Source: Gordonia hongkongensis
GTDB lineage: Bacteria > Actinomycetota > Actinomycetes > Mycobacteriales > Mycobacteriaceae
Direction: 5' to 3'
DNA length: 64,000 bases
NCBI RefSeq assembly: GCF_023078355.1
Contig: NZ_CP095552.1
Location: 4,278,001 to 4,342,000, forward strand
Shown: piece by piece, positions 14,326 through 25,124 of the stretch
Layout: each line of letters starts with the position of its first letter
Numbering within the stretch: position 1 is the stretch's first letter
Translations under genes and position numbers: made by a program
Notes under the pieces: model-generated
What the model saw: the letters and a program-made list of their open reading frames with translations, nothing else
What the model was told of the DNA's origin: nothing
The model's database searches: none

Positions 14326-14778
14326 CTATCCGGCCTTGCGCACCGAGTTGATCGTCTTCTCGACTTCCCAGAAGGCGCGCAGCGCCGACAGCTTGCCGTC
14401 GGCGTCGGCGCGATAGGTGAACACCCCGCGCGCCTCGGAGACGTGGCCGGCGATGTGGGTGACGATGCTGCCGATGTAGGCGACCTCGTTCCCGCAGATG
14501 ATCTCCTCGTCGAAGCGGAACTCGATGCTCTCGGTCGTCCCGATCGATTTGTCCCAGAATTCCGAGATCTGCTCATGCCCGCGGAATCCGACGCCGTCCG
14601 GGTCGAACATCGACGGGCCGACCGGGTCCTCGACCGTGGCGTCGGCCGCGAAGTTGTCGATCCAGGCCTGTTTGTCCCTGGATTCCACGAACTCACGCGA
14701 ACGACGCCCAGCCACGACTGCGGGATGGTTCTCCCGGTCGATGCCGAGGTAGGCCGGTGTCTGCTCTGCTGCGGTCAC
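14326..14778 (-). CDS. NTF2/SnoaL-like protein, ketosteroid-isomerase-like
   Basis: 150 residues of the NTF2-like fold. FVESRDKQAWIDNFAADATVEDPVG forms the first helices and acidic strand, GVGFRGHEQISEFWDKSIG the next helix, then IICGNEVAYIGSIVTHIAG and a C-terminal LRAFWEVEKTI strand. The Asp in the ATVEDP stretch lies where ketosteroid isomerases have their catalytic base region. The ATG at 14778 overlaps the cyp125 stop by four bases, so the two are translationally coupled. A steroid isomerisation or binding role is inferred from that coupling; activity is unproven. Confidence 0.75.
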   Translation of the reverse strand: MTAAEQTPAYLGIDRENHPAVVAGRRSREFVESRDKQAWIDNFAADATVEDPVGPSMFDPDGVGFRGHEQISEFWDKSIGTTESIEFRFDEEIICGNEVAYIGSIVTHIAGHVSEARGVFTYRADADGKLSALRAFWEVEKTINSVRKAG

Positions 14779-16094
14779 TTGGTGCCGTAGTCGACGCGGA
14801 GTTCCTTGACGCCGTTGATCCAGCCGTGGCGCAGGCGGCGCGGTGCGTCGAGCTTGGTGATGTCGGGCACCATGTCGGCGAGCGCGTTGAACATCAGGTT
14901 GATCTCCATCCGCGCGAGGTTCGCGCCGACGCAGAAGTGCGCACCGTTGCCGCCGAACCCGACGTGCGGGTTGGGATCGCGCATGATGTTGAACGAGAAC
15001 GGATCGTCGAAGACGTCCTCGTCGTAGTTCGCCGAACCGTAGAACATGCCGACGCGCTCACCCTTGGCGATGTCGACGCCGCCGATCTGCGTGTCGCGCT
15101 TGGCCGTCCGCTGGAAGCAGTTGACCGGGGTCGCCCACCGCACGATCTCGTCGACCGCGGTCGCCGGGCGCTCCTTCTTGAACAGTTCCCACTGATCGGG
15201 GTTGTCCAGGAAGGCATTCATCCCGTGGCTGATGGCGTTGCGGGTGGTCTCGTTGCCGGCGACGGTCAGCAGGATGAAGAAGAACCCGAACTCGGTCTCG
15301 TCGAGCGACTGCCCGTCGATGTCGGCGTTCACCAGCGTGGTGACGATGTCCTCACCGGGGTTCTTGCGCTTCTCCTCGGCCATCGTGTAGCCGTAGCCGA
15401 GAATCTCGGCATTGGCCTGCTGCGGGTCCGTGGTGTAGTCCGGGTCGTCGGCGTTCATCATCGAGTTCGACCAGTCGAACAGCTTCTCCCGATCCACCTC
15501 CGGCACGCCGAGGAGGTCGGCGATGGCCAGCAGCGGCAGGTCGACGGCGACGTCCTTGACGAAGTCGCCACTGCCCTTCTCCGCGGCCCGCGTCACGATC
15601 TCGCGCGCGGCGTCGTCGAGCTTCTCCTCGAGTGAATGCACGGCGCGCGGCGTGAACAACTTGGAGACCAGCTTGCGCAGGCGGGTGTGCTCCGGCGGAT
15701 CGTGGTTGATCAGCAATGCCTTGGTGATCTCGATCTGATCGGCGGTCATGTCGTCTTCGAAACGCATGATGACGCCGTTGGCGTTGGTTTCCCAGTCCTC
15801 GTTGTTCTTGGAGATCTCGCGCACATGGGCGTGCTTGGAGATCACCCAGTACCCGCCGTCGTGGAAACCACCGCCCTTGCCGGGCGCCTGGGCATTCCAC
15901 CAGACCGGCGCGGTCTTGCGCAGTTGCGCGAACTCCTTCACGGGGATTCCCTGCTCGAGCAGATCGGGGTTGGTGAAATCCCACCCCTCCTGCTCCATGA
16001 ACGGGCACTTCGCGACTACGTCGGAAGGGCTCGTGCGCGCAGAATCCGCCGGGGTCGGCTCGCTGCCGATCGGGGCGCTCTGGGCCTGGGTCAC
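14775..16094 (-). CDS. cyp125: Steroid C26(27)-monooxygenase Cyp125
   Basis: 439 residues, a class I bacterial P450. The I-helix oxygen-binding motif AGNETTR is near residue 280, the EIVRWATPVNCFQRTA stretch holds the ExxR-to-beta region, and the haem loop FGGNGAHFCVGANLAR has its Cys at about 388. Cyp125 oxidises the terminal methyl of cholesterol/cholestenone to start side-chain degradation. GTG 16094 has GAGGTGG upstream. It is separated from divergent fadA5 by three KstR-type boxes, matching the M. tuberculosis Rv3545c-Rv3546 arrangement. Confidence 0.9.
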   Translation of the reverse strand: MTQAQSAPIGSEPTPADSARTSPSDVVAKCPFMEQEGWDFTNPDLLEQGIPVKEFAQLRKTAPVWWNAQAPGKGGGFHDGGYWVISKHAHVREISKNNEDWETNANGVIMRFEDDMTADQIEITKALLINHDPPEHTRLRKLVSKLFTPRAVHSLEEKLDDAAREIVTRAAEKGSGDFVKDVAVDLPLLAIADLLGVPEVDREKLFDWSNSMMNADDPDYTTDPQQANAEILGYGYTMAEEKRKNPGEDIVTTLVNADIDGQSLDETEFGFFFILLTVAGNETTRNAISHGMNAFLDNPDQWELFKKERPATAVDEIVRWATPVNCFQRTAKRDTQIGGVDIAKGERVGMFYGSANYDEDVFDDPFSFNIMRDPNPHVGFGGNGAHFCVGANLARMEINLMFNALADMVPDITKLDAPRRLRHGWINGVKELRVDYGTK

Positions 16095-16118
16095 GTCACA
16101 CCACCTCGCTGTGAGATT

Positions 16119-16132
16119 TAGAACCTGTTTCA
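16119..16132. promoter_or_regulatory. KstR-type operator upstream of cyp125
   Basis: TAGAACCTGTTTCA fits all fixed positions of TnnAACnnGTTnnA. It is 25 bases upstream of the GTG start of cyp125, where it would cover that promoter. Confidence 0.85.
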
Positions 16133-16174
16133 ACCACATTGAAGCACACTGTGACGCATACGACACCCTCAGAT

Positions 16175-16188
16175 GAGAACTTGTTCTA
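16175..16188. promoter_or_regulatory. Second KstR-type site upstream of cyp125
   Basis: GAGAACTTGTTCTA matches TnnAACnnGTTnnA except for the first base. It is 43 bases beyond the first cyp125 site and may be a secondary site. Confidence 0.65.
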
Positions 16189-16336
16189 GTTTTGTTCCCG
16201 GTCCGGTATCCCGACCTGCGATCTTCTGTCGCAGATCCGTTCACATTCATCGTCGTGCAGCGTCGACGCATGGCGTCGAACACCCGCCGAGTGGGCCGTC
16301 CTGCCCGCATCATCCACCCCAGCGTAGACGCAAACA

Positions 16337-16350
16337 TAGAACGTGTTCTA
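16337..16350. promoter_or_regulatory. KstR-type operator upstream of fadA5
   Basis: TAGAACGTGTTCTA, a perfect palindrome fitting the KstR consensus, lies 83 bases before the fadA5 start. The 338-base gap between cyp125 and fadA5 therefore holds three sites and no gene. Confidence 0.88.
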
Positions 16351-16351
16351 G

Positions 16352-18087
<1,736 letters not shown>

Positions 18088-18103: not shown

Positions 18104-18361
18104 GCTCTCCCGAGGTGCAACATCCTCCGCTCCCTGAGGTGTGAGGAGAGCAAGATCCTCCGCTCCCTGAGGTGTGAGGAGCGATAGCGACGAGCCACGA
18201 AGGGCGGCAGGGCATCTCACCAGACCCTTCGTGGCTCGCTTCGCTCGCACCTCAGGGAGCAGTGGGCCGTCGCCCGCCTCAGGGAGCAGGGGGCCGTCAC
18301 GCTCGCACCCTCGGTCGCCAGACCCTTCGTGACGCGCCCTCCGCAAGCTCCGGACGCTGCT
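18104..18361. repeat. Gordonia-type intergenic repeat block, left half, interrupted by IS110 element
   Basis: Repeated words CTCCCTGAGGTGTGAGGAG (twice, 33-34 bases apart), then a strong inverted repeat with arms GAGCCACGAAGGG and its complement around 18204-18238, then a second unit with CCCTTCGTGACGCGCCCTCC and GCAAGCTCCGG. The same words recur at 20081-20165, 23036-23475 and 31826-31950. The unit ends abruptly at GCTGCT (18356-18361), where the insertion sequence begins, and resumes at 20079. Confidence 0.75.
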
Positions 18362-18389
18362 AGTAATAGCTGGAAGGGCTGGTAACTGG

Positions 18390-18449
18390 GACATCCTCCT
18401 GATGTGGTCATAAGGGGCTTGGTTATCCCAACCACAAAAGGAGGATGTC
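18390..18449 (+). promoter_or_regulatory. Inverted repeat masking the transposase ribosome site
   Basis: GACATCCTCCT at 18390-18400 is an exact complement of AGGAGGATGTC at 18439-18449, with 38 bases between. The right arm contains the Shine-Dalgarno AGGAGG (18439-18444) and an ATG. If the leader RNA folds this way the ribosome site is hidden, which would restrain transposase translation. Transcription reading in from outside would carry the full leader. Confidence 0.6.
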
Positions 18450-18450
18450 A

Positions 18451-19806
18451 ATGTCTAAGGCTAGTCGTTTGAGTCGTGGAGACAAGCGTCGCAACGATCG
18501 GTTGAGCAAGTTCCGGGGCATCGTGCGCCGTGACTACGCGGTCGCAGCGATTGATCTGGCGTCGAAAAAGCAAGTTGTCGCTGTGGTCGATCACGACTCC
18601 CGCATCGTGGCGCGCAGAACTTTTCACTGCGCGCCACCGCAGTTGGCCACCGCGATCGAGTGGAGCCGTACCGCCGCTACCGCTGCCGGGTTTGCCGGCA
18701 TCGTCATCGCGTGTGAACCGACCGGGCATCGCTGGAAAACGGTCCGAGACCTGACCGCGGCGGTCGGGGTGCAGATGGTGTGTGTGCAGCCGATCGCGGT
18801 GGCACGGGCCCGAGAGACCGAAGACTTCACCCACGACAAATCCGATGACAAAGACGCCCTGCTGATCGCACGGCTGACCACCCAACTTCATATCTATCTG
18901 CCCGAACACGCCGACGAGCAATGGACCCGGCTACGTCACCTCGGCGTACGCCGATCCCAGCAACTCACCCGCCGTGGTGCGGCGCAGCAACAAGCCCGCG
19001 ACCTCCTCGAAGGCGCCTGGCCCCACGCCCTTGACTGCGCCGGGCAACCGTTCAAATCGGTGACCTGGCTGGCCGCGATGGCCGTCATCGGTTGCACCCC
19101 GGAAACGTTGACCGCCCAGGGCAGCCGGGAACAGGCGGTGGCGTGGCTCCGCGAACACGTACGCGCCGAACTGCCCTGCTGGGGTGGGCGTCGGGTCACT
19201 ACCCGCATCCTGGTCGCGATCGTCGATGCCGCTTTCGCCGTCCAGACCGAGACCACGATCACCGCCGAGGCCGGTGCGCTGGAACGGGCCCGCTACGCCT
19301 TGGCCGACTTTCACCACGCCCGCACCGCCTGCGAGCAGGTCGAGGCGGCCATGATCGAGGTCCTCACCGGGCTGGGCCTGCACGAACTCGCCGGATCCAT
19401 TCCCGGAGTATCGGCGGTCTCGGTGGCGGCGATCCTCGCCGAAACCGGTGACCTGACCCGCTTCGACTCGGCGCGGGCGGTAGTCAAACATGCCGGACTA
19501 TGCCCCCGGGAGAACTCCTCCGGCGCCTACCGCGGCGCCACCCGCATCAGTGGTCGTGGCCGGCCGCTGTTGCGGGTCGCCGCCTGGCGAGCGGCGTTCG
19601 CGGCGTTGACCCACAACGAGGTATACGCCGCCCGCTATCGGCACCTGACCAGCCGAGAAGCAAACCGCCTCAACCCCAACCAGGCCCGGGTAGCGATCGC
19701 CGCGGCTCTGTTGCGGCAGCTATACGTCGTCATCACCACCGCCACGCCGTGGAACCCTGACATCGCTGCCGGCCGTACCCGACCCGTAGAAAGGACCGCC
19801 GCCTGA
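18451..19806 (+). CDS. IS110-family transposase (RuvC-like DEDD plus serine domain)
   Basis: 451 residues. The N-terminal DEDD domain has AAIDLASKKQ (first Asp), VIACEPTGHRW (Glu) and DKSDDKDALLIA (two Asp); a helical linker follows; the C-terminal transposase_20 domain begins SIPGVSAVSVAAILAETGDLTRF and includes the LCPRENSSG stretch with the candidate nucleophilic Ser. IS110 enzymes work with a bridge RNA. I chose ATG 18451 because AGGAGG lies six bases upstream; an ATG at 18445 directly abuts that site. No frameshift or stop interrupts it, so it may be active. Confidence 0.9.
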   Translation: MSKASRLSRGDKRRNDRLSKFRGIVRRDYAVAAIDLASKKQVVAVVDHDSRIVARRTFHCAPPQLATAIEWSRTAATAAGFAGIVIACEPTGHRWKTVRDLTAAVGVQMVCVQPIAVARARETEDFTHDKSDDKDALLIARLTTQLHIYLPEHADEQWTRLRHLGVRRSQQLTRRGAAQQQARDLLEGAWPHALDCAGQPFKSVTWLAAMAVIGCTPETLTAQGSREQAVAWLREHVRAELPCWGGRRVTTRILVAIVDAAFAVQTETTITAEAGALERARYALADFHHARTACEQVEAAMIEVLTGLGLHELAGSIPGVSAVSVAAILAETGDLTRFDSARAVVKHAGLCPRENSSGAYRGATRISGRGRPLLRVAAWRAAFAALTHNEVYAARYRHLTSREANRLNPNQARVAIAAALLRQLYVVITTATPWNPDIAAGRTRPVERTAA

Positions 19807-20078
19807 CCCCTAAACCCCTTCCGGCCGGGACAAGCTCGCTGCTCCTTGGGCACATAAGCCCGACCCTGAGCCTGAGCAGTCCCACCCCGGCGCGAACCAA
19901 GCTCGAATGAAGGCTGTTGGGTACCAACCCGTTTGACCGCTAGGTAGAGCCCGCGCCAGGCAACGACCCCGGCCATCCAAAACCCCACCATCATCCATCC
20001 CGCAGCCACCACCGGCCGCCGGGCCACACCCCCACGCCCACACCCATCACAGGACCCTGTTGACACAAACCCTCATAG
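19807..20078 (+). ncRNA. Candidate IS110 bridge RNA in the right non-coding end
   Basis: 272 bases without a gene between the transposase stop and the right end. CGCTGCTC at 19837-19844 equals the left half plus core of the insertion site, and CCTGAGCAG at 19871-19879 is the reverse complement of core plus right half (CTGCTCAGG). This is the left-guide/right-guide arrangement of a bridge-RNA target loop. Further on, AGGCTGTT (19911-19918) could pair with the element's own end AGGCTGCT with one G-U pair, as a donor guide would. The boundaries of the RNA are not known; the matches are short. Confidence 0.5.
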
Positions 20079-20080
20079 GC

Positions 20081-20165
20081 TGCTCAGGGAGCAGGAAGAC
20101 GCGCCCTCCGGGCGCTCCTCAGGGAGCAGAGGGGCTCAGGGAGCAGAGGCCGCCACCCGCCTCAC
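20081..20165. repeat. Gordonia-type intergenic repeat, right half after the IS
   Basis: CTCAGGGAGCAG occurs in several copies (from 20083, 20118 and 20135), together with GACGCGCCCTCCGGGCGCTCCT. It continues the repeat cut by the insertion sequence and runs into the 3' end of the gene at 20119-20784, supplying its last codons. Confidence 0.7.
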
Positions 20166-20784
20166 GAAGCCGGGACCAGCCCGCGGGGTCCCGGCCGGTC
20201 CAGTTGGCCAGTCGCTCAGTGGGTCCGGCGCCGGGGCGGGGTTCGACGACGACGCCGAACGGCACGTTGGGGTCGGTGCGGATCTCGGCCGGGATGAACT
20301 GCTGCGCGACCGCGAGGGTCGCCTCGGCCGTCGCGCGATCGGCTTCCGCGGGTTGGCCTGTCGCGACGGCGAGGTCCCAGCCGTGCACGAGGGTCTCGCT
20401 GACATAGCCCCAGAGCGCGCCTGCGCCGGGTACCTCACCCCACGGCACCTGGACCATGCGGGTCAGCGACGCATCATCGGCCCATCCCTCCAGGGCGGCC
20501 TCGACCAGCGCGGAGTAGGTGGCAGCGTCGTGCTCCTCGGCGATCGTCCGCATCGTTCGGACGTCGAGTCCGTCGGCGAGGGCCCGGGCGCGCTCGGCGG
20601 TCGCCACGACGTGCGCCGAGAGTGTCCGGACGTCGAAGTCCTCGCAGGGAGTGGGCGCTTCCAGCTGCTCGTCGGCGATCCCGGTCAACAGTGCGGCGAC
20701 CCAACTAGTTGCCACTCGGAATGCGGGACGGGGGTCGGCGGGTGCGGCCGGGGCGGGCACGGCCTCTGGTGTGGTTACGGTCAT
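20119..20784 (-). CDS. TIGR03086-type DinB-like metal-binding protein
   Basis: 221 residues. The four-helix DinB/MDMPI-like domain starts about residue 20: LLTGIADEQLEAPTPCEDFDVRTLSAHVVATAERARAL carries the conserved PC-x-DFDVRxLxxH metal-ligand motif, and LWGYVSETLVHGWDLAVATGQPAEAD holds the second His/Asp pair. Relatives include mycothiol-dependent maleylpyruvate isomerases and thiol-transferases; the substrate here is unknown. ATG 20784 has AAAGGA seven bases upstream. The last dozen residues (GGGLCSLSPSAP) are read from the intergenic repeat and look non-native. It is divergent from a WYL regulator, with a palindrome between them. Confidence 0.8.
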   Translation of the reverse strand: MTVTTPEAVPAPAAPADPRPAFRVATSWVAALLTGIADEQLEAPTPCEDFDVRTLSAHVVATAERARALADGLDVRTMRTIAEEHDAATYSALVEAALEGWADDASLTRMVQVPWGEVPGAGALWGYVSETLVHGWDLAVATGQPAEADRATAEATLAVAQQFIPAEIRTDPNVPFGVVVEPRPGAGPTERLANWTGRDPAGWSRLREAGGGLCSLSPSAP

Positions 20785-20833
20785 GATGACGTCCTTTCCT
20801 GGTAGTCGGTCGGTCTGACACCAGTGAATCCGC

Positions 20834-20860
20834 AATACACGACATCTACTGTCATGTATT
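20834..20860. promoter_or_regulatory. Inverted repeat operator between DinB-like gene and WYL regulator
   Basis: AATACACGACA, five bases, TGTCATGTATT: arms match at 10 of 11 positions. It lies in the 88-base gap between the two divergent starts (20784 and 20873), so the WYL regulator probably binds it to control both genes. Confidence 0.65.
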
Positions 20861-20872
20861 CGGGAGAGAATC

Positions 20873-21835
20873 ATGATCGTGCGCGCCGAACGTCTCATCG
20901 CCCTGCTGATGGTGCTGAAGAAGCACGAGCGGGTGACCGCCGCCGAGTTGGCCGCCGAGCTCGGGGTCTCCGAACGAACCGTGCTCCGCGACATCGACGC
21001 GCTGTCGCTGTCCGGCGTGCCGGTCTACGCCGAGCGCGGCCGGCACGGCGGCTTCGCGTTGTTACCGGGGTATCGCACCGATCTCACCGGACTGACCGTC
21101 GACGAGGCCACGTCGTTGCTCGCCGGTACCGGACGGGTCGACTCCCCCGCGTTCACCAGCGCCATGCGCAAGGTGACCGCCGCCCTGCCCGAGGCGCACC
21201 GGAGTCATGCCGTGCGCGCCGCGCAGCGGATCCTGGTCCGTCCGGAGGGTTTCGTCAGAACCCCGGAGATCCTCGACGGCCTCCAGGCCGTACAACTCGC
21301 CGTGTTCGAGGGCCGACGGATCCGTGTGAGCTACCGGAGCCGGGGTGCGCCCACCCCGCGCGAGCACGTCCTCGACCCGATCGGACTCATCGTGGCGGGC
21401 GAGACCTGGTACCTCGTCGCCACCTCACCGCGCAGCACGTCGCACGACGGCGCCGGCTCGGCGGAACGCATGTACCGCGTCTCCCGGATGAGCGACGTGG
21501 ACGTCCTCGACGAACCCGCGCGCCGGTCCGATGACGTCGACCTCGGCGAGATCTGGGAGCGGCATCGTGACGCGTTCCGACGCTCCTTCGAACCCGTCGA
21601 CGTGGTGATCGACTGCTCGGCCGACGATGCCGAGCAGATCGAGTCAATCGCCGCCGCAACATATCTCGACCGCTCACCAGAAGGACGATGTCGGCTCGGA
21701 CTCCGGTTCGCCGACCGTCGCCACGCCACGCGCGCGTTGTGGGCGTCGATGTTCGACCACGACTTCGTGGTCTGCGAGCCGGAATGGCTCCGAACCACGC
21801 TCACGGCCCGCGCCCGCGTTGTCGGCGGCGACTGA
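20873..21835 (+). CDS. HTH/WYL-domain transcriptional regulator (YafY type)
   Basis: 320 residues. The HTH_11 domain is at the N-terminus (LIALLMVLKKHERVTAAELAAELGVSERTVLRDIDAL, about 8-50), a GGFALLPGY turn follows, and the WYL domain is at about 140-230 (IRVSYRSRG, EHVLDPIGLIVAGETWYLVA). The C-terminal WCX-like extension ends LWASMFDHDFVVCEPEWLR. WYL domains sense nucleic-acid or nucleotide ligands in characterised cases; here the ligand is unknown. GGGAGAG precedes the ATG. Its divergent neighbour and the shared palindrome suggest local control. Confidence 0.85.
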   Translation: MIVRAERLIALLMVLKKHERVTAAELAAELGVSERTVLRDIDALSLSGVPVYAERGRHGGFALLPGYRTDLTGLTVDEATSLLAGTGRVDSPAFTSAMRKVTAALPEAHRSHAVRAAQRILVRPEGFVRTPEILDGLQAVQLAVFEGRRIRVSYRSRGAPTPREHVLDPIGLIVAGETWYLVATSPRSTSHDGAGSAERMYRVSRMSDVDVLDEPARRSDDVDLGEIWERHRDAFRRSFEPVDVVIDCSADDAEQIESIAAATYLDRSPEGRCRLGLRFADRRHATRALWASMFDHDFVVCEPEWLRTTLTARARVVGGD

Positions 21836-21912
21836 GGCGAGCACATCGGGCCGCCTGCACCGAACGAATGAATCCTCTGGCGAGGCCCCCCTGCCTGTGG
21901 TCTGATTCTCGA

Positions 21913-23031
21913 ATGTTCGGGGTTCTCACTCCATGTCGGCACGCACTCGACGACGACCTGATGGACCAGTGGCGCTCCCACCTGTGCGGGGTCTGTCTGT
22001 CGCTGCGCGACAACCACGGCCAGTCGAGCAGGTTGACGGTCAACACCGATGCGGTGATGGTGTCGATCCTCACCGCAGCCCAGTCGACGTCGGAGTGCGC
22101 CTCCACCGAGGCCGGTCGGTGTCCCCTACGCGGAATGCGCACGGCGACAGTCGTGTCCGCCGACGAACCGGGTGTCCGCCTCGCCGCGACCGCCTCCCTC
22201 ACCCTCGCCGCCGCGAAGGCGGCCGACGTCGGCAACGAGCAGCGACACGCGCTGGCGCCCCGTCGGCCGGTACGCGCGAAGCTCGCCGACTATGCCGGGA
22301 GCCACCTGCGCCGGAATGCCGCGGCCGACACCGAGGTCGCCCGACGTCTCGATGTCGACGGGATGATGACGACGCTCTCTCGTCAAGCCGAGATCGAGTC
22401 GACGAGCGTCGTCCTCGACGACCTCACCCGGGCGTCGGCAGTGGCTGCGGCACAGGTCTTCTCCGCGTCGGCGATACTCGCCGACGCACCCCGCAACGAG
22501 GCAGCGCTCTCCGACATCGGTGCCGATTTCGGCCGGATAGCGCACCTCTTGGACGCGGTCGACGACTATGACTCCGACGCCGAGCAGGGACGGTACAACC
22601 CACTCCGGTCCACCGGAACGTCGCCGGAGACCGCGCTCGAGCAGTGCCGGCGACTCGCCTCCGCGATCCGGACCCGCTACGCCGACCTCGAACTCGTCGA
22701 CGACCGACTCCTACGAGTGGTGTTGCTCGACGGACTGCGCCACGCGATCCACAAGCGCATGCACCCGCACGCGGAGGCCCCTTCGGTGGTCGCCGACTCG
22801 CGCACCCAGTGGCCGCCGCACCGGCCGTTCGGCTATCCGACCGAGTGGCCGTACCCGCCACCCTTCAAACCGAATCGATCGTTCCACGAACGGATTCTGC
22901 CGTTCATCGGCGTCTCGTGCTTCGGCAAGGCCTGCTGCGTCGACCACTGGAATCACTTCACCGACAAGTACAAGGACGCGGTCTGCGACGACTGCGACTG
23001 CTGCGATTGTTGCGACTGCTGCGACCTGTGA
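21913..23031 (+). CDS. DUF5685 family protein with Cys-rich tail
   Basis: 372 residues, soluble and largely helical. The N-terminus MFGVLTPCRHALDDDLMDQWRSHLCGVCLSL carries a CxH...CxxC cluster and is typical of the DUF5685 family. The middle contains VDDYDSDAEQGRYNPL. The end includes GVSCFGKACCVDHWNHF and an extreme C-terminus of Asp/Cys repeats (CDDCDCCDCCDCC). The many cysteines suggest metal or Fe-S binding, an inference only. ATG 21913 was chosen because it begins the conserved domain; an upstream ATG at 21868 is in frame. Function unknown. Confidence 0.72.
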   Translation: MFGVLTPCRHALDDDLMDQWRSHLCGVCLSLRDNHGQSSRLTVNTDAVMVSILTAAQSTSECASTEAGRCPLRGMRTATVVSADEPGVRLAATASLTLAAAKAADVGNEQRHALAPRRPVRAKLADYAGSHLRRNAAADTEVARRLDVDGMMTTLSRQAEIESTSVVLDDLTRASAVAAAQVFSASAILADAPRNEAALSDIGADFGRIAHLLDAVDDYDSDAEQGRYNPLRSTGTSPETALEQCRRLASAIRTRYADLELVDDRLLRVVLLDGLRHAIHKRMHPHAEAPSVVADSRTQWPPHRPFGYPTEWPYPPPFKPNRSFHERILPFIGVSCFGKACCVDHWNHFTDKYKDAVCDDCDCCDCCDCCDL

Positions 23032-23035
23032 CCCG

Positions 23036-23475
23036 CCCGGGCGGGTCAATTGAGGAGCGAGCAATGCGCTCCCCCTGTGCTCCTTGAGGTGCGAGCAATG
23101 CGCTCCCCCTGTGCTCCCCGAGGTGCGAGCAATGCGCTCCCCCTGTGCTCCCTGAGGTGCGAGCGAAGCGAGCCACGAAGGGCGCCGCAACCTGTCTCAC
23201 CAGGCCCTTCGTGGCTCGTCGACCTCGATGCGCTCCTTCGTCGCTTGCTCGGCCCGGCGGCTAACGCTCCTCACACCTCAGTATCTGCGGCCAGGCGGCC
23301 GTCGTGGACAACGAAAGAACCTCCGCTCCCTGAGGAGGCCGGAGCTTGCGGAGCCGTCACGAAGGGTCCTGGTGAGCCGGTTGCGAAGACCCTTCGTGAC
23401 GCGCCCTCCGCAAGCTCCGGGCGCTCCTCAGGGAGCAGGGGGCAGGTCGTTACTTTCGGATCAGGGAGCAGAGGG
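23036..23475. repeat. Large intergenic repeat block with 34-bp tandem units and two inverted repeats
   Basis: 447 bases between genes, filled with repeats. A 34-base unit (GAGCAATGCGCTCCCCCTGT and 14 more bases) occurs three times head to tail from 23059 to about 23160. An inverted repeat with arms GAGCCACGAAGGGC spans about 23171-23216. A second inverted repeat, built of CGGAGCTTGCGGAG and CACGAAGGGTC and their complements, spans about 23337-23432. It ends in CTCAGGGAGCAG near the stop of the acyl-CoA synthetase gene. No gene is supported here. Confidence 0.78.
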
Positions 23476-23478
23476 GAT

Positions 23479-25124
23479 CTAGCCGACCCCGCGGTCGGAG
23501 TCGGCCCAGTACTGGGACCGCAGCGCCTTCTTGTCCGGCTTGCCGAGCGCGGTCAGTGGCAGGGCATCGGCGAAGATCACCCGCTTGGGTGACTGCACCG
23601 CACCCTTGCGGTCTTTCACGGACTGCTGGATCTCGGCGGTGATCCGGTCCTTCGCCGCGTCGTCGGCGTCGGCATCGTTGCGCAGCACCACGATCGCGGT
23701 GACCGCCTCGCCCCACTTGTCGTCCGGGACACCGATCACGCCGACCTGACCCACTGCCGGGTGTTCGGCGACGACGTCCTCGACCTCGCGCGGGAACACA
23801 TTGAAGCCACCGGTGACGATCATGTCCTTGGTGCGGTCGACGATGAACCAGAATCCGTCCTCGTCCTCGCGGGCCACGTCGCCGGTGCGCAGCCAGCCGT
23901 CGCGGAAGGTGTCCGCGGTCTGTTCGGGGAGGCCCAGGTACCCGCCGGCGAGAAGTGGTCCCGCGACGCAGATCTCGCCGGGTTCGCCCTGCGGGACGGG
24001 CTTGTCGTCGGGCCCGAGCAGGGCGGTACGCAGGAAGGCCGACGGCCGTCCGCAGCTGCTCAGCCGACGCTGGTCCTCACCGGGACCCGGATGGTCACCC
24101 TTCGCCAGGTAACTGATGACCATCGGCGCCTCGGACTGGCCGTAGTACTGCGCGAAGATCGGCCCGAAGCGCTCGATCGCCTCGGCGAGCCGGACCGGAT
24201 TGATCGGCGACGCACCGTAGTACACAGTCTCCAGCGAGGACAGGTCGCGCGTCTTCGAGTCCGGGTGGTCCATCAGTGCGTACAGCATCGACGGCACCAG
24301 CATCGTCGCGGTGATCTTCTGCTCCTCGATCGTGCGCAGCACCTCGGCCGGGTCGAACTTGGACAGCACCACCATCGATCCGCCCTTCATGAGGGTCGGG
24401 ACGAAGAAAGCGGCACCCGCGTGCGAGAGGGGCGTGCAGAGCAGGAACCGCGGGTGTTCGGGCCATTCCCATTCCGCGAGCTGGATCTGCGTCATCGTCG
24501 ACATCGCGCGGGCTGTCCCGATGACGCCCTTCGGCTTGCCGGTGGTGCCGCCGGTGTAGGTGATGGAGACGACGTGGTCGGGTGAGAGATGCGCGGCGAC
24601 AAGGGGCTTCGGCTCGAAGCCGTCGGCTTCGGCGATCACGTCCCGCGCGTGGGCGGCGAGTTGCTCCGGCACCGGCCCGAGGGTCAGCACCTGCTTGAGA
24701 CCGGGAACCCGTTCGAGCAGTGCCGCGGCCCGCTCGACGAACATGGGCACCGGGTCGATGATGAGAGTCGACACGCCGGCGTCCGAGAGCACGTACGCGT
24801 GGTCGTCGAGTGAGCCCAGGGGATGCAGAGCGGTGCGGCGCCATCCCTGCGTCTGGCCGGCGCCGATCACGAACAGCACCTCGGGCCGATTCAGCGCAAG
24901 TAGGCCGACCGCGGTTCCCGTACCAGCACCCAACCCTCGAACGCCTGGATGTAGCGGCTGATCGACGCCGCCATCTCACCGCCGGTCATCTCGGTGTCGC
25001 CGAGAGACAGCACGGTGCGGTCGGCGTGCCGCCGCAGCGCCGCGACCATCAGGTCGCCCATGTGCGTGCCCCCGCGCAGGTGATCGAAGTCGGCCGGTGC
25101 TGTCGTCGTACCCTCGTTCGTCAT
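23479..25124 (-). pseudogene. Acyl-CoA synthetase (FadD8-like) interrupted by a 1-base frameshift
   Basis: An ANL-family ligase of about 548 residues read in two frames. The N-terminal part (ATG 25124 to about 24936) ends ISRYIQAFE; the rest resumes one base out of phase at 24933 with LGAGTGTAVGLLALNRPEV. The join is continuous for the family if one base is added at 24934-24935. Downstream everything is intact: [44 protein letters not shown] and the C-terminal Lys region LTALGKPDKKALR. A KstR-type site lies upstream. A true frameshift mutation or a sequencing error are both possible. Confidence 0.78.

Follow-up and report, generated by a model that had tools for sequence, protein, structure and literature searches.

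Guide register of a predicted right-end bridge RNA in an IS110-family element of Gordonia hongkongensis

Introduction

How does an IS110-family element of Gordonia hongkongensis choose its insertion site, and which bases of its non-coding right end act as guides? The element lies on the forward strand of a 64,000-nucleotide stretch of contig NZ_CP095552.1, hereafter the window, in which all coordinates are given unless stated otherwise. A sequence-only reading of this locus had proposed a bridge RNA downstream of the transposase gene (tnp), with CGCTGCTC (19837-19844) as left guide and, after 26 bases, CCTGAGCAG (19871-19879) as right guide. It had also proposed that AGGCTGTT (19911-19918) pairs with the element end AGGCTGCT (20077-20084), and had noted the flanks CTCCGGACGCTGCT and CAGGGAGCAG. 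All these strings were found at the places given for them. The comparison with relatives described here indicates that the element is very likely a bridge-RNA-guided IS110 element, and it places both target guides in another register.

Materials and methods

Relatives were collected at the protein level (3767 of 7997 scored proteins at E <= 1e-30) and at the DNA level, where an alignment used as query gave 72 loci; a single-protein query of genome contigs, plasmids and viral contigs found no relative. Usable matches were obtained at 94 loci, overlapping copies counted, and 25 of these were dropped because the anchors, the scaffold or the right end were not recognisable. The 69 loci kept correspond to 54 distinct insertion sites, of which 50 lie outside the element's own copies, with transposase identity of 47-100%. 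Guides were placed by the conserved RNA scaffold and flanks by the conserved ends, each independently of the other. The right-end pattern fixed the second core base as T and left the first core base free, and the left-guide anchors of two loci (L066 and L095) were set by rule. The covariance model was built from 41 sequences including that of the window. For flank prediction, 24 loci outside the model were taken from covariance-model matches, six others being omitted as duplicates or truncated.

The element and its transposase

The host genome (5.4 Mb) carries four intact copies of the element and one broken copy. Among the intact copies, those of the window, L002 and L003 have identical transposases, and that of L004 is 98% identical. 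In the fifth, broken copy (L005-L007), other DNA interrupts both tnp and the region just 3' of it. The features of the window copy are collected in Table 1.

Table 1. Positions of the element, its predicted RNA and its flanks in the window
Feature	Position	Strand	Remark
Left flank: left target CGCTG + core CT	18355-18361	+	Natural repeats mostly CGCTC-CT
IS110-family element	18362-20084	+	1723 bp, with core CT included at right end only; both ends common to four intact copies
Left end / right donor AGTAATAG	18362-18369	+	
Transposase, 453 aa	18445-19806	+	DEDD_Tnp_IS110 and Transposase_20
Bridge-type RNA (predicted)	19816-19970	+	Covariance-model match, 121.4 bits, sole match in window; extent is that of model match
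5' arm, target-loop base stem	19827-19831	+	Pairs with 19879-19883
Inner stem GCTC	19834-19837	+	Pairs with GAGC 19874-19877
Left target guide TGCTC + core CT	19840-19846	+	
Apical hairpin of target loop	19848-19861	+	GGGC/GCCC
Right target guide CCCTG + core complement AG	19864-19870	+	Pairs with CT-CAGGG
Candidate handshake dinucleotide, target loop	19871-19872	+	Pairs donor -1 G; -2 unpaired here
3' arms of target-loop stems	19874-19883	+	Most of first-proposed right guide
Donor-loop stem GCTC	19901-19904	+	Pairs with GAGC 19947-19950; 3/4 pairs in consensus
Left donor guide AGGCTG	19911-19916	+	
Right donor guide GCTAG	19939-19943	+	Final G pairs with first core base
Candidate handshake dinucleotide GT, donor loop	19944-19945	+	
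-35-like box TTGACA (candidate promoter)	20060-20065	+	In a circle would fall 18 bp before TAGTAA of left end
Right end: left donor ATAGGCTG + core CT	20075-20084	+	
Right target CAGGG in flank	20085-20089	+	

The assignment of the transposase to the IS110 family in the sequence-only reading was borne out by its domains PF01548 (E 1.1e-19) and PF02371 (E 6.9e-22), by a score of 169.4 bits against NF033542 (cut-off 140) and by profile matches to the solved IS621 and ISCro4. Residues D37, E91, D134, D137 and S359-G360 were invariant among 16 aligned transposase relatives, and comparison with IS621 suggests that they are catalytic. The motif G--P----SG, given as an IS110 family trait in the text of PMC11187229, is present with its conserved serine (G351, P354, S359 and G360 invariant in 16 sequences). 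With a DEDD (RuvC-like) domain, Transposase_20 and the serine motif, the element belongs to the IS110 family sensu lato. Of two further traits of the family, RNA-guided insertion and a circular intermediate, the first is supported by the covariation of guides and flanks described below.

Non-coding DNA of the element amounts to 83 bp before tnp and 278 bp after it. A search of the linear element for a sigma-70-type promoter found none. The neighbouring genes (14775-18087 and 20119-24933) encode a cytochrome P450, a steroid 3-ketoacyl-CoA thiolase (NF005889), a TIGR00026 oxidoreductase, a TIGR03086 protein and a FadD8-type ligase, which suggests that the surroundings are a region of lipid/steroid catabolism.

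A conserved predicted RNA structure at the right end

Folding of the 41 aligned sequences by RNAalifold gave two stem-loops, each made of an internal loop and an apical hairpin, with 17 pairs. The proportion of paired cells was 98.6% against 91.7% in shuffles, and 38-60% in slid versions; compensatory cells numbered 59 against 14.6, and the covariation score was 0.276 against 0.138. No excess over shuffles was observed for pairs changed on both sides (6; shuffles 5.5) or for further pair types (10; shuffles 13.5). Of 49 loci that had not entered the covariance model, 30 were matched by it, some of them containing copies of modelled elements. Rfam gave no match, and one sub-threshold match to a miRNA family within tnp was disregarded. 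The covariance modelling of right ends and the compensatory changes support the conclusion that the right-end non-coding region encodes one conserved structured RNA, with a predicted target loop 5' of the donor loop. Both the presence of this RNA and the order of its parts, including a left guide 5' of the right guide as in IS621, had been anticipated by the sequence-only reading.

The conservation could also reflect a feature at the level of protein or DNA, such as end binding or a cis DNA structure, with no acting RNA. Folding of the single sequence was indeed weak (z -1.68, 9 of 200 shuffles being equally good). The compensatory stem changes, together with the covariation of guides and flanks on both strands described below, argue against such a feature, which we consider very improbable.

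Register of the target guides

In the register anchored on the conserved stem, the right guide agreed with its own right flank in the core at all 54 sites, in five of five bases at 44 and in at least four of five at 52; without the element's own copies, the last two values were 40 and 48 of 50. Mismatches at +1 to +5 numbered 1, 0, 1, 6 and 4 of 54, and at +6 they numbered 45 of 54, forming a sharp edge. The left guide matched the left flank exactly at 28 of 46 sites and in at least four of five bases at 41 (28 and 39 of 42 without own copies). Its mismatches at -1 to -5 numbered 5, 2, 2, 1 and 16 of 46, seven of the 16 at -5 being U:G-compatible, and the left guide is good as far as -4. On scanning of offsets, the right guide scored 6.76/7 at zero and at most 3.1 elsewhere between -12 and +12, while the left guide scored 6.52/7 at zero and at most 2.67 elsewhere between -10 and +10.

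Shuffling of flanks among the 22 right guide types gave a mean of 42.5 and a maximum of 65 in 20000 trials, against 103/110 observed. For the 12 left guide types, the observed 49/60 compared with a mean of 28.0 and a maximum of 44, and was reached in 0 of 20000 trials. For the right guides, none of 20000 permutations attained the observed value overall; within single cores it was attained in 0 (AT), 1 (GT) and 333 (CT) of 20000, the permutation within CT-core elements alone being weak. Prediction of right flanks from the guides succeeded at the expected place for 18 of the 24 loci outside the model, with seven of seven bases in 13, and the expected match was absent in the other six; this prediction was not fully blind, because several of the loci had been seen by eye beforehand.

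Because the stem-anchored register fits the flanks of relatives, we take TGCTC-CT and CCCTGAG as the guides. The first-proposed guides CGCTGCTC and CCTGAGCAG correspond to registers -3 and +6, which scored only 2.67/7 and 1.88/7 in relatives. The left guide is thereby placed three bases further 3', and the right guide directly 5' of the stem. Most of CCTGAGCAG forms the 3' arm of the target-loop stem (the consensus pairs 19874-19877 and 19879), and this stem is kept in relatives with unrelated targets, such as L036. What favours the first-proposed guides is their close match to the flanks of the window copy, and one natural repeat that reads exactly CGCTGCTCAGGGAGCAG. For the four own copies, the left guide scored 6, 7, 6 and 7 of 7 in the first-proposed register against 6, 5, 6 and 5 in the anchored one, and the right guide 6/7 against 7. 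Since the own copies alone score the first-proposed register similarly, only comparison could settle the matter.

The broken copy bears on the same point. Its guide is TGCAC and its left flank CGCAC, an agreement found in the anchored register only; in the intact copies the guide reads TGCTC, and the left flank is CGCTC in two of them and CGCTG in the other two. A change of a single base in the guide goes with a change of a single base in the flank, which shows an apparent natural retargeting within one genome. Left flanks that do not exactly fit CGCTGCTC accompany the same RNA in two of the four intact copies, an outcome that the sequence-only reading had named as telling against it; absence of a conserved structure was the other, and here a structure was found. 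The perfect match of CGCTGCTC to the left flank of the window copy is a coincidence of register, and there is little chance that CGCTGCTC and CCTGAGCAG are the guides.

Cores and donor guides

The core was AT at 30, GT at 14 and CT at 10 of the 54 sites. These three natural cores co-vary with the guides, being tracked by the left and right target guides and the right donor guide, and this covariation shows what reads as natural core reprogramming in the clade. The left donor guide equalled the left donor in six of six bases at 43 of 54 sites and was incomplete at 11; pairing of the segment at 19911 with the right end, as first proposed, therefore stands for AGGCTG. The last base of the right donor guide complements core base 1 at 53 of 54 sites. 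Dinucleotides at the handshake positions, which were defined for IS621 (text of PMC11208158), pair with donor -1 at 53 and donor -2 at 39 of 54 sites, and with target -1 at 42 and target -2 at 34 of 46; this pairing is weak support, as the -1 positions hardly vary.

The left flanks of the four intact copies read CGCTCCT in two and CGCTGCT in two, the window copy among the latter; its left flank, like that of another copy, mismatches the left guide at -1. At this base (18359) the window copy and L004 have G, where the guide has C and the donor G. Either the G is a donor-derived trace of strand exchange, or these copies inserted at rare natural targets, of which one such repeat is known. A trace of strand exchange was considered since, on our reading of the text of PMC11208158, the staggered strand cuts of IS621 would leave -1 in heteroduplex. 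This explanation is weakened by the one natural repeat that reads CGCTG. L044 has a left-flank G together with a right-end C.

The host repeat as target

The site to which the guides point, CGCTC-CT-CAGGG, is a palindromic repeat present in large numbers in the host. The genome has 139 occurrences of GCTNCTCAGGGAGC, against 4 of the reversed pattern, and 153 of GCACCTCAGGGAGC, for which the control gave 0. Among 100 listed of the 139 places, 95 read GCTC, 1 GCTT and 4 GCTG. Of the six occurrences of GCTGCTCAGGGAGC, five belong to the right ends of the element's five copies, and the sixth is a natural repeat. The uninterrupted site CGCTGCTCAGGG of the sequence-only reading is the rare form, most repeats having GCTC; the natural uninterrupted repeat, at genome position 4924726, reads exactly CGCTGCTCAGGGAGCAG and is the single natural CGCTG repeat found. 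Within the window, the repeat CTCAGGGAGC is present in six forward and four reverse copies, including one right-end junction, at 18129-18287, 20083-20144 and 23147-23436; genome-wide there are hundreds, often in arrays. No REP-associated transposase (PF01797) was found in the host genome.

Copies of one element usually have such flanking bases in common, so that the matched bases might belong to the element itself, its ends having been mis-set and the agreement being internal. This is most unlikely: the host has many uninterrupted GCTCCTCAGGGAGC repeats (95 of the 100 places listed), L027 and L021 have the same RNA yet right flanks GTTTG and GTCTG, and the flanks of L114, L123 and L120 diverge directly beyond five bases.

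Discussion

It is very likely that the locus is an IS110-family insertion sequence with a right-end bridge RNA in the anchored guide register. Comparison of relatives shows the element, its ends, the RNA structure, the predicted target- and donor-guide matches and the core covariation. The RNA would be made and bound by the transposase. Its target loop (TGCTC-CT and CCCTGAG) would pair with both strands of CGCTC-CT-CAGGG in the genomic repeat, the predicted target of the guide pair being CGCTCCTCAGGG, and its donor loop (AGGCTG and GCTAG) with ATAGGCTG-CT-AGTAATAG, where the two ends of the element are joined. Recombination by the transposase at the CT core would then place the circular element in the repeat. 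We infer the circle, a promoter at its junction and the activity of the element.

As described in the texts of PMC11208160 and PMC11208158, the IS621 bridge RNA likewise has two loops, with the left guide 5' of the right and the target loop 5' of the donor loop, and IS621 shares the 2-nt core and the DEDD and Tnp domains. According to the same texts, its RNA lies in the left end, whereas that of the Gordonia element lies in the right; its right target guide has four bases including the core, against 5+2 here; and its core is CT, whereas relatives of the Gordonia element also have GT and AT. With 453 aa, the transposase is also longer than the solved IS621 chain (328 aa). The IS1111 seekRNA elements ISEc11, ISPa11 and ISKpn4 (text of PMC11187229) also have the non-coding region downstream of tnp, but they differ in their transposases of 330-350 aa and in having subterminal inverted repeats (sTIRs), and their top-strand guide lies 5' of the bottom-strand guide, opposite to the Gordonia element. 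The agreement with IS1111 noted in the sequence-only reading thus holds for RNA location and fails for guide order, since the tested IS1111 seekRNAs in that text are downstream with the top-strand match first. The tested IS110 element ISEc21 has its RNA upstream and the bottom-strand match first (same text).

The predicted architecture is therefore mixed, the RNA occupying the IS1111-type end and the guides following the IS110-type order. From the IS110 group it has the bottom-strand guide 5' of the top-strand guide, an order that would be the same whichever strand is transcribed, and a transposase length within the 395-455 aa given for the subgroup with IS110 in the text of PMC11187229; it lacks the long non-coding region upstream of tnp that is usual, with exceptions. 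From the IS1111 group it has the downstream non-coding region, and it lacks the top-strand-first order and the subterminal inverted repeats of 7-17 bp, the Gordonia element having 3 bp. For such repeats, AT-core relatives average 7.26/10 at offsets 1 and 4, and CT-core relatives 4.6. Exact subterminal inverted repeats of 7-8 bp, an IS1111-like trait, were seen in L066, L047, L051, L091 and L019.

PMC11187229 mentions IS110-type elements whose non-coding region lies downstream (the 'green group' of Fig. 1b), and its text gives no RNA data for them; likened by this description only, they and the Gordonia element are probably the same or neighbouring groups. ISAar29, one of six elements with RNA drawn in Extended Data Fig. 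10 of PMC11208160, may be close to the Gordonia element. In the literature searched, which comprised mainly openly available article texts, no description of a downstream RNA combined with bottom-strand-first order was found. A third architecture between IS110 and IS1111 might be represented by an actinobacterial clade in which the RNA lies at the IS1111-type end, the guides have the IS110-type order, transposases are about 450 aa long and only AT-core members have imperfect subterminal repeats, a proposal that we find plausible while stopping just short of favouring it. If true, where the RNA lies and how its guides are ordered would be separable traits, and the clade may preserve traces of a move of the RNA between element ends.

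Guides read from one element alone can yield a convincing but wrong register. The comparison provides a rule by which targets can be read from the sequence of the IS110 clade with right-end RNA, namely 5+2+5 bases anchored on the conserved stem. It also offers an apparent case of natural retargeting by one guide base inside one genome, and a test case for the evolution of RNA position, guide order and subterminal repeats.
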